Source: an uncultured Gammaproteobacteria bacterium
GTDB lineage: Bacteria; Pseudomonadota; Gammaproteobacteria; Pseudomonadales; Litorivicinaceae
Direction: 5' to 3'
Assembly (NCBI GenBank): GCA_913057215.1
Contig: CAJXNQ010000015.1
Coordinates: 1-38,164, forward strand
DNA length: 38,164 nt
The notes beneath the pieces were generated by a model. That model made no database searches and was not told the DNA's origin. It was given only the letters and a program-made list of their open reading frames with translations. The first letter of the stretch is position 1, and every line of letters begins with the position of its first letter. Positions 3,907 to 18,744 of the stretch are shown in pieces. The position numbers were made by a program, and so were the translations under genes.

Positions 3907-4710
3907 TTGAAAGCACAGACCATTTCATATGCCGAAGATTGGATGCCGGCACCGCAACGTTTTTTAATCAAAACGATGGAAACAGTGAGCGGACGCGGAC
4001 GCTTAATGCGACGCTACCGTGGGTTTCAACAGGTTGCAAACACACTGCAAAGTCCTGAGGTCTGGGATGCTGCCATGGATTATCTCGGCGCCCGCGGACC
4101 ATCGAGCGAGACCATGGTGTTGCCAAAACGGCGTCCGGGTCGGGGGCTCTTGTTGGTTGCCAACCATCCATTTGGAGTGGCTGACGGCGTTACGCTGGCA
4201 TGGATTGCCTCGAAAATTGATCCTCAATTTCGGGTGATTGCCAACGGTGTCCTTCGGCAAGAACCTGCATTGAATCCAAACATCCTGCCAATCGAGTTTC
4301 AACCTGGACGCGCTGCCACGCGCATCAATGTTGAAACCCGCAAGAAATCCATCGAGACACTTAAAAATGGGGGCGTTGTTGCGCTGTTTCCGGCCGGTGG
4401 CGTCTCGTGGTCACCCAAACGCGGCGTGCCAGTGCGTGACGATGTTTGGAAACCACTCGTCGGGCGCCTGATCCGAGCCAGTGGGACGGATGTACTGCCG
4501 ATTCGATTTCTTGGGACCAACTCAGCACTCTTTCAGCATGCCTCTCGGACTGCGCTGACACTCCGACTCGGTCTGTACATGCACGAGGTACGGCGTCGAC
4601 TTGATCAGCCGATCGAATTCCAACTCGAGCCGGTCATCGAGCACGAGCGATTTCCAGATCTACCCGATCAAAGTTTGGCCACCTGGCTTCGCGATCAGAT
4701 TCTGGATTAA
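3907..4710 (+). CDS. PlsC-like lysophospholipid acyltransferase family protein
   Basis: Putative glycerolipid acyltransferase of 267 residues. The catalytic block is NHPFGVADG, the spaced His/Asp variant found in the hemolysin-like branch of the PlsC family. The substrate block is LFPAGGVSW (in place of FPEGTRS), followed downstream by VLPIRFLGTNS. There is no obvious membrane segment, so association is probably peripheral. The chosen start is TTG at 3907, preceded by AGGAT; the next in-frame ATG is at 3943, so the N-terminus is uncertain. Its stop shares TTAA (4707-4710) with the convergent pirin gene. The acyl acceptor is not predictable. Confidence 0.82.
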   Translation: MKAQTISYAEDWMPAPQRFLIKTMETVSGRGRLMRRYRGFQQVANTLQSPEVWDAAMDYLGARGPSSETMVLPKRRPGRGLLLVANHPFGVADGVTLAWIASKIDPQFRVIANGVLRQEPALNPNILPIEFQPGRAATRINVETRKKSIETLKNGGVVALFPAGGVSWSPKRGVPVRDDVWKPLVGRLIRASGTDVLPIRFLGTNSALFQHASRTALTLRLGLYMHEVRRRLDQPIEFQLEPVIEHERFPDLPDQSLATWLRDQILD

Positions 4711-5579
4711 TCCGCCGGCAGCGGGATCCATTCGGTCTCACCAGGCACTCTCGCAAACCGGTCCTCAACCCAATCCCGCTTCGCTTGCTCAAGTCGCTCG
4801 GGATCGGATGCAACAAAGTTCCACCAGAGGTGTCTCGGTCCATCAAGCGGCTCACCACCAAAAACCAGCACACGTGCACCCTGCGGCGCCTTCAATGTCG
4901 CTGCATATCCAGGCGCAAGCACCAAGAGTTCAGATCCCGCATATTGAATACCATCCAACTCAATGGGTTGATCGACACTGAAGATTGCACGCTCGGTGAA
5001 ATCTGCGGGAACCTCGAGCGTGCTGCCTCGATCGAGCTGGAAATCGACATAGACACTTGGATGTGGAAAAACCACGGGGCTGACCAACCCAGACCACTGA
5101 CCCATCACCACGCGCCCGGCAATACCCGCCTCATGAAACGTCGGAATGGTCGCATCCGCGTAATGGACAAAATCCGGATCTTGCTCCTCAAACTGCCGCG
5201 GTAAAGCGAGCCAACTCTGGATCCCAAATAAGCGACTCACAGCAGCCCTCGAAGCCGCGTCAGAACGTTCCGAGTGCACGATACCAGAGCCTGCCGTCAT
5301 CAGATTGACTGCACCCGGTCCAATGATCAGATCAGAGCCCAGACTGTCGCGGTGCTGGATATGCCCATTAAACAAATAGGTTAAGGTCGCAAGGCCAATG
5401 TGTGGATGTGGCCGAACATCAATGCCCTGATCAGACAATAACTCACCTGGCCCAAATTGATCCCAAAACACAAAAGGACCCACCGAGCGACATTGCCGAG
5501 AGGGCAGTGCACGCTTGACCTCTAAGTTACCAATGTCGGTCGTTCTCGGAATCACGTGATGCAGTGGTGTGTTAGACAT
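4707..5579 (-). CDS. Pirin family protein
   Basis: 290-residue bicupin protein. The ATG at 5579 is chosen because AGGAGG lies five bases upstream; the open frame extends further to 5642. The pirin metal site is visible in HPHIGLAT, IQHRDS and GIVHSE, supplying His, His, His and Glu, and the GPFVFWDQFGPG segment is typical of the family. Bacterial pirins are non-haem iron cupins; some have quercetinase activity and others bind metabolic enzymes. Which applies here cannot be told. It is a single gene, divergent from trmL. Confidence 0.9.
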   Translation of the reverse strand: MSNTPLHHVIPRTTDIGNLEVKRALPSRQCRSVGPFVFWDQFGPGELLSDQGIDVRPHPHIGLATLTYLFNGHIQHRDSLGSDLIIGPGAVNLMTAGSGIVHSERSDAASRAAVSRLFGIQSWLALPRQFEEQDPDFVHYADATIPTFHEAGIAGRVVMGQWSGLVSPVVFPHPSVYVDFQLDRGSTLEVPADFTERAIFSVDQPIELDGIQYAGSELLVLAPGYAATLKAPQGARVLVFGGEPLDGPRHLWWNFVASDPERLEQAKRDWVEDRFARVPGETEWIPLPAD

Positions 5580-14411: not shown

Positions 14412-14794
14412 GTGGGGTACGACTCGATAAGTGGCTGTGGGCAGCCCGATTCTTTAAAACTCGGGGACTGGCGCGTGAGGCCATCGACGGTGGGAAAATC
14501 CGCATCGATGGAGTCAAGGCCAAGCCGTCAAAAGTGGTGATGCCGGGTCTGCAAATTGAAATCTCCAAGGGTCAGATGGTGATGGTGGTTGACGTTGTTG
14601 ATGTCCGCGAGGATCGGAGGCCGGCTTCGGAAGCCGCATTGCTTTACGCAGAGACGCCCGATTCAATCAAAGCGCGCGAAGCCGAGGCCGACATTCGAAA
14701 ATTTGCGCGTCAAGGCTTCCAACCCACCGATCATCGCCCCAATAAACGCGAGCGGCGCCAATTGACGAAGTTAAAAGGAATTTTTGATGACTGA
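14408..14794 (+). CDS. hslR: Heat-shock protein 15, ribosome-associated S4-domain protein
   Basis: 128 residues. The S4 RNA-binding domain occupies residues 4-60 (VRLDKWLWAARFFKTRGLA, then GGKIRIDGVKAKPSKVV), followed by a basic tail ending near RPNKRERRQL. Hsp15 binds stalled 50S subunits carrying nascent chains and helps recycle them. The ATG at 14408 overlaps the yrfG stop; a longer frame from 14396 is less likely. It overlaps the start of hslO by eight bases. Confidence 0.95.
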   Translation: MSGVRLDKWLWAARFFKTRGLAREAIDGGKIRIDGVKAKPSKVVMPGLQIEISKGQMVMVVDVVDVREDRRPASEAALLYAETPDSIKAREAEADIRKFARQGFQPTDHRPNKRERRQLTKLKGIFDD

Positions 14795-15677
14795 ACTCAC
14801 TGCTGACCAGGATGTGGTGCGCCGTTATCTGTGCGACCAGGCACCAGGCTCGCGGGTGGTCTCAGCACGCTTGACCGAGACCGCGCGAGCGCTGGTTGCA
14901 CACCAGCAGATGCCGCCTCAGGTCGCCGCACTGTGCCAAGAAATGTCCTTGGCTGCGAGTCTTTTAACCAGTTGCCTGAAGTTTGAAGGCGAAATGACGA
15001 TACAAGCCAAATCAGATGGGCCCGTCAGCCTCTTAGTCGCCGAGTGCACCTCTGATGGACAACTTCGCACCACCGCGCAATGGGATCCCGAGTTGAGTGC
15101 CACGACCTTTCGAGAGTTGGTTGGCGAGGGATATTTTGCAGTGACGGTGGACCCCAAACAGGGCGAACGCTATCAGGGCATCGTTGCCTTAGATGCAGAT
15201 TCGATCGGAGGCTGCATGAATCAATACTTTTATCAATCTGAGCAGTTAGCCACTGAAATGTGGCTTGCCGCTGATGGGACCAGCGCGGGCGGTCTTCTGA
15301 TTCAACGCTTGGCCACAGAGGGCGGCCATCAACCCACCGAGGCAGCAGGCTTGGACACCCTGAAAGCGCTGGCGCACACGGTGCTTGCTGAGGAGCTCAT
15401 CGTCGATGCGGGTCCAAAGCTCGTGTATCGGTTATTCCATGAACTGAAGCCAAGGCAATTTGAGCCCTGGCCCGTGTATTTTGGGTGTTCATGTTCAAAA
15501 GCACGTTCAGCGCGCGCAATCCGTGCCTTGGGTGCCGAAGACGTGAAACGGCTGTTTGAAGATCAAAAAGAGGTCCGAGTGGATTGTCATTTTTGTGGAC
15601 AGGTATACGAATACGATCAGGCTGACTTAGAATGGCTACTCTCTGATCAGCCACCAGGGTCTGACACACTGCAATGA
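14787..15677 (+). CDS. hslO: Redox-regulated chaperone Hsp33
   Basis: 296-residue holdase activated when its zinc is lost on oxidation. The C-terminal redox switch has the canonical CxC-x30-CxxC pattern (Cys234, Cys236, Cys267, Cys270), in FGCSCSKARS and DCHFCGQ. The N-terminal domain shows SLLVAECTSDGQLR, typical of the family. ATG 14787 is preferred over the preceding TTG at 14784; AAAAGGAA is upstream. The TGA overlaps the next gene's ATG (15674-15677). Confidence 0.96.
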   Translation: MTELTADQDVVRRYLCDQAPGSRVVSARLTETARALVAHQQMPPQVAALCQEMSLAASLLTSCLKFEGEMTIQAKSDGPVSLLVAECTSDGQLRTTAQWDPELSATTFRELVGEGYFAVTVDPKQGERYQGIVALDADSIGGCMNQYFYQSEQLATEMWLAADGTSAGGLLIQRLATEGGHQPTEAAGLDTLKALAHTVLAEELIVDAGPKLVYRLFHELKPRQFEPWPVYFGCSCSKARSARAIRALGAEDVKRLFEDQKEVRVDCHFCGQVYEYDQADLEWLLSDQPPGSDTLQ

Positions 15678-17176
15678 AGCATCAAGGGGCGAGCCGTTTC
15701 GACGACCTCACCTTCGCAGAACTCCTCGAGCATGCCTTGGCAGCGCGCGAGGGACAGCTCTCAGCACAGGGCGCACTGGTTGTTCAAACCGAGCGTCATG
15801 TCAGCGTGCGTCGTTACCTCGTCAACGAACCCTCCGTGACCGACGTCATCCGCGCCGACGCTCAATTTCAATTGTTAGATCCAGGCGTCTTCAAAGGTCT
15901 GTGGGAGCGCGTGAAAGACTCCACAGTCGAGCGCACTCGATATCGCCTGCACACACACATGGGTGTCGATCCAGACATTGCAGTTCCACTTGAGATCACG
16001 ACCTTACAAGCATGGCATGCAATGAGCTGCCATCAGCTCTGTCATATTCCAGAGGCGTTCAACCCCAAAGAAAAACCTGTTTGGAAAATCATTTGGGCAT
16101 CCACGGATGCTCTCGGTGAAGCCGAGGTGCTGAACGAAGGAGGTGGCGTCGTTCTGATGCACGTCGGCAAACGCCGAGTACTGATCGGAGGCGATCTATC
16201 GACGGGGGAAATGCGTCGCACGTTGCTGACGGTGCTTGGGCTCTTGTTACCAGAAAAGCAGACCTTACCCCTACATGGCGCAGCCGCCGAGAGTGATGGA
16301 GAGGTCACTTTATTTTTAGGTCCAGCTGGGACCCAAAAAACAACCTGGGCTCTGAAATGTGGTCATTTGATCGGCGATCGCGGATTGTCATGGTCCAGTG
16401 CAGGGCTTCACCGTCTGGCCGATGGGTGTCGTCTGCACCTCGACCAAAATCTACCAATCTCATTGGATGACGCACTGAGCTTTGGAACCTTGGCAGAAAA
16501 TCTACCCTTGGGGCTCGATCGTCAGCCAATCCCAGCCGAGGAAACGACCGACCCGGAGAACCCTGTTCATTTGGTGCTGCCGTTGTCACGGTTGCATGCG
16601 ACTGAGGCGTCGGACACACGCGGACCGAGCCAGCTGGTGATACTCGCGACTGATCCACTCGGTGTCCTGCCGCCCTTGGCTCGGATCACACAAGAACAAG
16701 CCCTTGCCTGGTTCATTCTTGGCTATGGCAATCACCTCGGACCACTTGAGTCCAGAGATGCTGAAATTGACATCCGTTTCACGCCCGGCTTCATGGATAC
16801 CTTGCTACCGAGAAACCTGGATGACTACATCTATATTCTTGAAGACCTGATGCAAGCCCATCAAACCCGCTGTTTCTTGGTGAATGCCGGTTGGCATGGT
16901 GAGAAAGCCACACGTGGTGAGCCCCTGTCCGCCTCAGAAGAAAGTGCTGTGATCACCAGTCTTTACTACTGTACGGACTGGGAGAGTTTTGGCGCTCTTG
17001 GCCTCGAGGTCCCCGCCGGGCAGTCGGAAACGGCTGGCCCCTGGCACCCCAAAGCACGGTGGGAGTCTGAAGAAAAATACCTACACCGACTGCGTGAATT
17101 AACGCATGCAATTCATGAGGAGCTGATACGGCGCGTCGACTCGGCCCGTTGGCTCACTGCACTGGACCTCGAATGA
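15674..17176 (+). CDS. PEP carboxykinase (ATP)-like protein, probable pseudoenzyme
   Basis: 500 residues, homologous over its length to ATP-dependent PEP carboxykinase (540 in E. coli) and in the position after hslO where pckA normally lies. Recognisable blocks are GGDLSTGEMRRTLLTVLGLLL (about 172-192, for YGGEMKKGMFSMMNYLL), LPLHGAA (198-204), a P-loop GPAGTQKTT (216-224, for GLSGTGKTT), LATDPLGVLPPLARIT (about 324-339) and FLVNAGWHG (401-409). Key positions differ: the FTGRSPKDK substrate loop is not recognisable, Lys of EMKK is Arg, the metal-binding GDDEHGW reads GDRGLSW, and the RVSYP adenine-side motif is absent. P-loop Lys222, Thr223 and His201 remain. Full catalysis looks unlikely. 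The ORF is intact and coupled by ATGA overlaps to hslO and gshA, so it is probably expressed and selected. Its role is unknown. Confidence 0.82.
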   Translation: MKHQGASRFDDLTFAELLEHALAAREGQLSAQGALVVQTERHVSVRRYLVNEPSVTDVIRADAQFQLLDPGVFKGLWERVKDSTVERTRYRLHTHMGVDPDIAVPLEITTLQAWHAMSCHQLCHIPEAFNPKEKPVWKIIWASTDALGEAEVLNEGGGVVLMHVGKRRVLIGGDLSTGEMRRTLLTVLGLLLPEKQTLPLHGAAAESDGEVTLFLGPAGTQKTTWALKCGHLIGDRGLSWSSAGLHRLADGCRLHLDQNLPISLDDALSFGTLAENLPLGLDRQPIPAEETTDPENPVHLVLPLSRLHATEASDTRGPSQLVILATDPLGVLPPLARITQEQALAWFILGYGNHLGPLESRDAEIDIRFTPGFMDTLLPRNLDDYIYILEDLMQAHQTRCFLVNAGWHGEKATRGEPLSASEESAVITSLYYCTDWESFGALGLEVPAGQSETAGPWHPKARWESEEKYLHRLRELTHAIHEELIRRVDSARWLTALDLE

Positions 17177-18744
17177 CCCCACTCCTGCCGATACTGAGCC
17201 CGCGCCTCGAAGATGCGCTGGCACACCCCGATTGCCTGGAAAGCCTGAAAGGCATGCGTTTTGGACTTGAGAAAGAGGGGCTTCGTGTCGACAAAAACAC
17301 GGGCGCATTGGCACAAACACCACATGCAAAGGCCCTGGGATCGGCACTGACACACCCGAATATCACCACTGATTATTCAGAAGCACTGCTTGAGTTCGTT
17401 ACAGCGACCCATGAAACGCCGCAGGCTGCGCTTGCTGAACTCGAATCACTGCAAGCCTATTCTGCAAGCGTTTTAGGCGATGAGCGCATTTGGCCGCTGT
17501 CCATGCCCTGTCTATTACCCGAATCTGACAGCGACATCCCACTTGCCTACTACGGCGAGAGTTACCTGGGGCGGCTCAAAACCGTGTACAGACGCGGACT
17601 CGGCTTTCGGTATGGACGGCAAATGCAAACCATTGCGGGCGTGCACTTTAATCTATCCTGGGATGATGCATTTTGGCATTGGCGAGCCAACCTTGATGGT
17701 CACGCGGCTGACAATGACCATCGGCAGATTCGGGACACGGGCTACTTTCACACCATCCGCAATTATCGTCGGATCCAATGGCTCTTTATGCTCCTCACGG
17801 GCGCCTCACCGGCTGTGGATGCAAGTTTCCGGCTGCTTGCCATGGATCGATTCCAGATGTCCGATCGGACTCGGATTGCAGCCGACGCGACCAGTTTGCG
17901 CATGAGCGATCTGGGCTATCAATCTGCCGCGCAAGAATCGATCAATATTTGCTTTAACCATCTCGACACCTATTGCGAGACGCTGGCGCGTGCGGTTCAC
18001 CAGCCCTGGCCGACCTACGAGGGCCTTGGCCTTAAAGATCAGGCAGGCTACAAACAACTCAACACAGCAGTATTGCAAATTGAAAACGAGTACTACTCAA
18101 GTATTCGTCCAAAACGCGTTCAAAAAGCGTCCGAGCGGCCGGTTCGGGCATTAATCAACCGTGGTGTGGAATACCTCGAGATCCGTGCCATTGATCTCAA
18201 TCCCTATGCACGAAACGGCATTTCTGAAACGGAGGCCTGTCTCATCACACTGCTGATGACCGCGTGCGCAATCGCCGACAGCCCACATAATTCAGATGCA
18301 GAATGTATTGCGATCAATGGACTCAATGCGCGTGCCACCTGGGCCGGCCGACACGGCTCACAGCACTTTGATGCCAAGCGCACGTTTCGACAAGCCGGCC
18401 TTGAAGTTCTGGCTTCATTGGATGGATTGGCCGAGGTGCTGGATCGGGCGCAGGCAACTCAGGGACACACGCATGCACTTCAGGATGCGAGAGTGCGCTT
18501 ACAGGGGGATTGTCCACTCGTATCAGAAGACGTTGAGGCATCCTCGATCACGCCGGGTCACCTGGAATTTGGTCTCGCCCAAGCTGAATTACACCACGGT
18601 CATCTCATTGCACAGACAACAACCGAGGGCCGCGCTGAATTTGCGAAGACTGCCGAGCAGAGTTTACGGGCTCAGCAGGACATCGAGGCTCAGGATCAAG
18701 GCAGCTTCGATGACTTCGTCACTGCCTTTATCAATCAACCCTGA
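17173..18744 (+). CDS. gshA: Glutamate-cysteine ligase (gamma-proteobacterial type)
   Basis: Cytoplasmic first enzyme of glutathione synthesis, joining glutamate and cysteine with ATP; 523 residues against 518 in E. coli. Visible blocks are GLEKEGLRVDKNTG, ITTDYSEALLEFVT, the substrate/ATP segments MQTIAGVHFNLSW and YEGLGLKDQAGY, and EYLEIRAIDLNPY. ATG 17173 overlaps the preceding TGA; an upstream in-frame start at 17149 would run into the previous gene. It is the last gene of the plus-strand run and its stop abuts the convergent FKBP gene. Confidence 0.96.
   Translation: MTPLLPILSPRLEDALAHPDCLESLKGMRFGLEKEGLRVDKNTGALAQTPHAKALGSALTHPNITTDYSEALLEFVTATHETPQAALAELESLQAYSASVLGDERIWPLSMPCLLPESDSDIPLAYYGESYLGRLKTVYRRGLGFRYGRQMQTIAGVHFNLSWDDAFWHWRANLDGHAADNDHRQIRDTGYFHTIRNYRRIQWLFMLLTGASPAVDASFRLLAMDRFQMSDRTRIAADATSLRMSDLGYQSAAQESINICFNHLDTYCETLARAVHQPWPTYEGLGLKDQAGYKQLNTAVLQIENEYYSSIRPKRVQKASERPVRALINRGVEYLEIRAIDLNPYARNGISETEACLITLLMTACAIADSPHNSDAECIAINGLNARATWAGRHGSQHFDAKRTFRQAGLEVLASLDGLAEVLDRAQATQGHTHALQDARVRLQGDCPLVSEDVEASSITPGHLEFGLAQAELHHGHLIAQTTTEGRAEFAKTAEQSLRAQQDIEAQDQGSFDDFVTAFINQP

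Follow-up and report, generated by a model that had tools for sequence, protein, structure and literature searches.

PckX, a protein derived from phosphoenolpyruvate carboxykinase with a replaced set of catalytic residues, encoded between hslO and gshA in the Litoricola/OM252 lineage

In the textbook enzyme phosphoenolpyruvate carboxykinase (PEPCK or PCK), the catalytic residues are nearly invariant, as was the case for all 71 sequences of the sample used here. The text of Aich and Delbaere (2007; PMC2684135) describes a PEPCK-specific KK motif, the second lysine of which binds the metal, and a kinase-2 motif, XDD, conserved in all PCKs; in its alignment, A-per is without the second Lys of XKK, and the row C_gra has Arg preceding the P-loop Lys. 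Compared with these single departures, the protein described here, named PckX, has G-D/E-R at kinase-2 and, in addition, a changed KK motif and nucleotide region. Point mutants of the E. coli enzyme with solved structures are available for R65Q (6crt), K213S (2py7), D269N (6com) and S250A (6v2l). PckX is altered at all four positions together, with one fixed replacement at each except the R65 column, and the S250A change is found in it exactly. The roles ascribed below to residues of E. coli PCK, other than those covered by the above review, are general background. Literature searches brought up no earlier report of such a PEPCK-derived protein.

The window, a stretch of 38,164 nucleotides of contig CAJXNQ010000015.1, contains the PckX gene at positions 15674..17176 of the + strand; it encodes 500 aa and was characterized by homology search, its orthologues and a structural model. 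All features given below are on the same strand. The upstream gene hslO (Hsp33; 14784..15677), recognized by a profile match, shares four nucleotides (ATGA) with the PckX start, and the ATG of the downstream gshA (glutamate-cysteine ligase; 17173..18744), at 17173, overlaps the PckX stop, again by four nucleotides (ATGA). The intact reading frame with ATGA overlaps at both ends, pointed out in the initial annotation, was therefore confirmed. Among the neighbours, the glutamate-cysteine ligase scores 466 bits, above the NCBIfam cut-off of 393, while HslO (231 bits, cut-off 244) and Hsp15 (124 bits, cut-off 148) are slightly below theirs. The order hslO, PckX, gshA is found in all 16 named loci of the genus (hslO is partial in L060 and L061). 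The 4-nt overlap of hslO and PckX is present in the window and in these 16 loci (17/17), and PckX and gshA, as called, overlap in 16/16.

PckX matches the Pfam family PEPCK_ATP (PF01293) with an E-value of 4.3e-64 and 217 bits over residues 10-430, and it matches solved ATP-PEPCKs at the sequence level. It is below the cut-off of all six NCBIfam PEPCK models, the best of which is the Pseudomonas-type NF006823 (235 vs 815 bits). An AlphaFold model was constructed from an alignment of 32 sequences, comprising the window protein, 16 orthologues and 15 PEPCKs from viral contigs; it has a pLDDT of 86.5 and a pTM of 0.88, whereas the model from the 17 close orthologues alone has a pLDDT of 37. The best 35 PDB matches of the model, which include a PckA-QOX2 model, are all of the ATP type, with a TM-score to the query of 0.77-0.86, and GTP-type PEPCKs rank after them. 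Both the profile and the predicted fold thus bear out the full-length alignment with ATP-PEPCK noted at the outset. Pseudomonas-type ATP-PEPCK and PckX have in common the fold, the length, the residues H232, K254, T256, G251 and W273 and the slot downstream of hslO; they differ in the catalytic, metal, substrate and nucleotide residues, which are replaced in PckX, and their identity is 28-33%. It can also be noted that the relatives of PEPCK used for the model are encoded by 15 contigs classed as viral (L124-L138).

Seventeen PckX sequences were compared with 71 canonical ones, 49 of the Pseudomonas type and 22 of the E. coli type; the canonical set consists of 70 loci picked by score and by hand and of E. 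coli K-12. Six substitutions separate the two groups completely, being fixed as the first residue in 71/71 canonical and as the second in 17/17 PckX proteins: K212R, K213R, S250A, G253Q, D269R and R333H. The KK motif is RR in all PckX (R181-R182, 16214..16219), R236 (16379..16381) stands in place of D269, turning the kinase-2 GDD into G-D/E-R in 17/17, and H299 (16568..16570) replaces R333. Y207, likewise invariant in the canonical set, is T in 15 and S in two PckX proteins; we take Y207 and R333 to be substrate residues of PEPCK. The P-loop of the window protein is GPAGTQKTT (16319..16345), with L249P, S250A and G253Q and with K254 kept, and the family pattern GPAG[TA]QK[TS] departs from the kinase-1a GxxGTGKT. 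Other states found in 17/17 PckX are P at L249, L at H271 and P at E297, whereas H232 (H201 in PckX, 16274..16276), K254 and T256 are retained in all of them; the T255 column contains T or S, and the D268 column D or E. The motifs EMRR, GTQKTT and GDRGLSW read in the initial annotation are present as quoted, its statement that most catalytic positions are changed extends to the 17 proteins compared, and the P-loop Lys222 and His201 that it named as retained correspond to the K254 and H232 columns. A mere shift of the catalytic residues to other positions was also considered and was rejected for KK, H232, the P-loop, GDD and R333; in the alignment with the 71 canonical sequences, the changes at KK, the P-loop, GDD and R333 sit at the catalytic columns.

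In three regions the placement of alignment gaps is uncertain. The substrate loop (codons 39-47, 15788..15814) is three residues shorter than the canonical TGRSPKD with R65; the R65 column has no Arg, and R41, present in 16 of the 17 proteins, is one residue from an alignable position. The stretch of canonical K288 is also shortened by three residues and has the sequence GCRLH[LF] in 17/17; MAFFT shows K288 as a gap, and the invariant R253 (16430..16432), which could stand in for it, is located there. R449 is a gap as well, and its approximate stretch (16907..16930) contains no Arg conserved across the 17 proteins. Possibly, the lost arginine and lysine roles are taken over in part by R41, close to R65, and by R253, close to K288. 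The initial suggestion of persisting nucleotide binding is weaker overall: the retained K254 and H232 and the possible substitute R253 still speak for it, but Q at G253 in 17/17 and the R449 stretch without a conserved Arg lower the likelihood that a nucleotide is bound in the old pose.

Of the 122 columns that both canonical types conserve, PckX keeps 40 and swaps 30 (each at ≥95%) and deletes seven; the other 45 are not fixed to this degree, and the canonical residue is still the majority in many of them. The new invariants include C119, H120, C123 and H124, found in 17/17, which form a C-H-x-L-C-H cluster (codons 119-124, 16028..16045) where a helix of the N-domain (113-122) ends in the AlphaFold model and may be a metal or thiol site.

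With K213, D269, Y207, R333 and the P-loop glycine lost, PckX can hardly be expected to carry out ordinary PEPCK chemistry and, judging by these residues, very probably has no PEPCK activity. A variant that is still active with an unusual catalytic set would agree with the preserved fold, with the retained P-loop Lys, His232 and Thr256, with R41 and R253 as conceivable substitutes for two lost residues, and with PckX being the sole PEPCK homologue of its genome. Such a variant is nevertheless very improbable: K213, D269, Y207, R333, S250 and G253 are replaced in 17/17 proteins whatever the gap placement, and the window protein is far below the six NCBIfam cut-offs.

PckX was found in 20 of the 25 genomes of the window's family, and all 20 belong to the genus Litoricola/OM252, represented by 22 genomes. 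Seventeen copies are full-length and intact, two are contig-end fragments (G005 and G021), and one (G012) is disrupted. In the latter (L139, G012:C24:7000-15500), the reading frame changes at about 4380-5320 of the locus, a region that begins in the 3' part of hslO and reaches the N-terminal half of PckX, while gshA is matched over its length; this is either an assembly error or local decay. Neither PckX nor hslO was found in the genus genomes G006 and G016, so the PckX locus is probably absent from those assemblies. Record titles of the PckX-bearing genomes include Litoricola, Litorivicinus, HIMB30 and LSUCC0096, which corresponds to the OM252 clade as presented in the text of PMC8269220. A peptide-pattern scan of the genome contigs yielded 18 loci, all attributable to genus genomes, and a class-wide search with the family profile at E 1e-70 matched only the window's genome, leaving the 142 other sampled genomes without a match (1/143); distant kin could escape both searches.

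A second, canonical pckA was also sought. In the window's genome, which is 93% complete, PckX is the only match to PF01293, and no second ATP-type enzyme was found in five further genus genomes; GTP-type PEPCK (PF00821) was found in none of the 22. Within the order, PEPCK_ATP was detected in 135 of 145 genomes. The scores are 203-235 bits in six genomes of the genus and 618-706 bits for full-length proteins elsewhere, with a few fragments scoring lower. In the same sample, G046, G063, G120 and G143 have two full-length PEPCKs, and 10 genomes have none.

The other intact PckX proteins are 62-75% identical to that of the window. Pairwise dN/dS within the family ranges from 0.020 to 0.225 among the 14 closest pairs, with a median of 0.076 in 19 pairs (raw pS < 0.65), a range like that of the neighbours and indicative of purifying selection in the genus: the medians are 0.085 for hslO (16 pairs; 15 of 17 rows were used, without the partial L060 and L061), 0.095 for gshA (13 pairs) and 0.053 for hslR (17 pairs). 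The mean dN of PckX is 0.18 vs 0.24 for hslO. PckX can hence be credited, with little doubt, with a selected function. A decaying pseudogene, for which one might cite the single disrupted copy of the 20, is hardly credible in view of the 17 intact copies and these dN and dN/dS values, and the view that the gene is not in decay, already put forward from the window alone, holds for the genus.

Columns of the former active site tend to be invariant more often than average. In a shell of 30 columns that we take to line the active site, 22 are invariant, whereas the whole protein has 197 invariant columns of 500 (Fisher p 1.5e-4); this list omits R65, K288 and R449, for which PckX offers no fixed counterpart, and therefore leans towards a reading of the cleft as repurposed. 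In a fuller shell of 38 columns, 21 differ from the Pseudomonas type, and 13 of these are invariant, vs 96 of 320 such columns elsewhere (p 0.006). A count confined to the columns that both canonical types conserve gives 12/18 and 18/41, and the difference is not significant (p 0.16). These figures bear on whether PckX could be a structural or partner-binding scaffold without a small ligand, acting, for example, on Hsp33 or glutamate-cysteine ligase. The gene overlaps on both sides would suit such a role, and the new C119-H120-C123-H124 cluster could serve it as a metal or thiol site; however, the cleft of a scaffold should drift, yet its columns are invariant more often than average, and the adjacency to hslO is older than the residue change. 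We consider a scaffold quite unlikely, and a ligand-binding cleft in PckX somewhat better than an even guess.

PckX most likely descends from a resident Pseudomonas-type pckA. Scores of the window protein are 167-214 bits with the 49 loci of the Pseudomonas type but only 92-115 bits with the 21 of the E. coli type. Upstream of pck and on the same strand, hslO was found in at least 31 of the 49 and at least three of the 21 loci, respectively (18 of the 21 are without it within the flank); these counts are lower bounds, since only 1.5-2 kb of flank was covered. The initial annotation had placed pckA directly after hslO in E. coli, which is not the case in K-12, where yhgE lies between them; within the order, hslO and pck are directly adjacent in 31 of 49 Pseudomonas-type loci. 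Within the fetched stretch, gshA is present in six of the 49. The proposed growth of the protein out of pckA is thus supported by synteny and scores, which also disfavour the import of an older divergent PEPCK, an origin with which the tree described next would be compatible.

The parent canonical group was not resolved by a quick tree with 12 of the 22 E. coli-type rows: PckX forms a single clade (SH-aLRT 100) with a long saturated stem and a compact crown and is not placed inside the Pseudomonas type. Measured through the midpoint root, the stem sums to 6.78 + 3.22 changes per column, while branches within the family do not exceed 0.64. In the three sister genomes, no PF01293 match reached the cut-off (14-16 bits only). 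The order in G023 (L118) is HAD hydrolase, S4 protein, hslO, 118 bp and gshA, without pck; the 118-bp junction (L118 5848-5965) is the slot of pckA in relatives. The contig of G022 ends inside hslO, and hslO was not found in G024.

These data can be explained as follows. Once the lineage could do without PEPCK, its Pseudomonas-type ATP-PEPCK would have remained at the old chromosomal position and been rewritten there for another task. By homology, PckX would be a two-domain protein in which a basic, histidine-containing cleft is held fixed, now with R181, R182, H201, K222, R236, R253 and H299, as placed by the alignment. The cleft would bind a small ligand that bears a phosphate or carboxylate group, with neither Mn2+ nor a nucleotide held in the former pose, and its closure on the ligand may work as a switch for sensing or regulation; with lower likelihood, it may support a new metal-free reaction. 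In general terms, that PckX is a former PEPCK rewritten in place into a metal-independent anion-binding protein, either a sensor/regulator or a new enzyme, appears probable, and between these two roles the balance is nearly even, tilting slightly to the sensor.

Taken by itself, a new enzyme, whose cleft would convert a carboxylated or phosphorylated substrate without a metal, by means of H201, H299 and the Arg/Lys set, is rather unlikely. It is favoured by ionisable residues fixed in 17/17 at former active-site columns and by the invariance of the shell, but there is no clue to a substrate or pathway, the neighbourhood being at least partly ancestral (hslO 31/49, gshA 6/49). The hslO-gshA context suggests redox physiology, although it carries little weight because its hslO part is ancestral. 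Only tentatively do we envisage the rewritten protein in its fullest form, as a whole PEPCK orthologue rather than a spare paralogue turned into a metal-free, nucleotide-independent ligand sensor or an enzyme with a reaction of its own; it would be coupled to hslO and gshA as redox genes and might bear a Cys/His metal or thiol site.

As for the lost PEPCK step, it could be covered by the route from malate via pyruvate to PEP with malic enzyme and PEP synthase. Malic enzyme was found in 18 of the 22 genus genomes and a PPDK_N protein in 19, mostly in frames of about 800 aa; that of G001, the one checked, clears the two cut-offs for PEP synthase (1270 and 1196 bits). PPDK_N is also present in two of the three sister-genus genomes but was not found in the most complete one, G023 (97%), which shows neither PEPCK nor PPDK_N, so the bypass explanation is not clean. 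The genome paper of the OM252 clade reports gluconeogenesis, and phosphoenolpyruvate, carboxykinase and pckA do not occur in its main text (PMC8269220).

PckX replaced residues that are otherwise nearly invariant and then froze the replacements, and the family is a natural test of active-site reassignment in which the fold and gene order stay. Homology-based annotation could label such genes pckA. HIMB30 and LSUCC0096, which according to the text of PMC8269220 are cultured, carry PckX, and the gene is therefore accessible to experiment.
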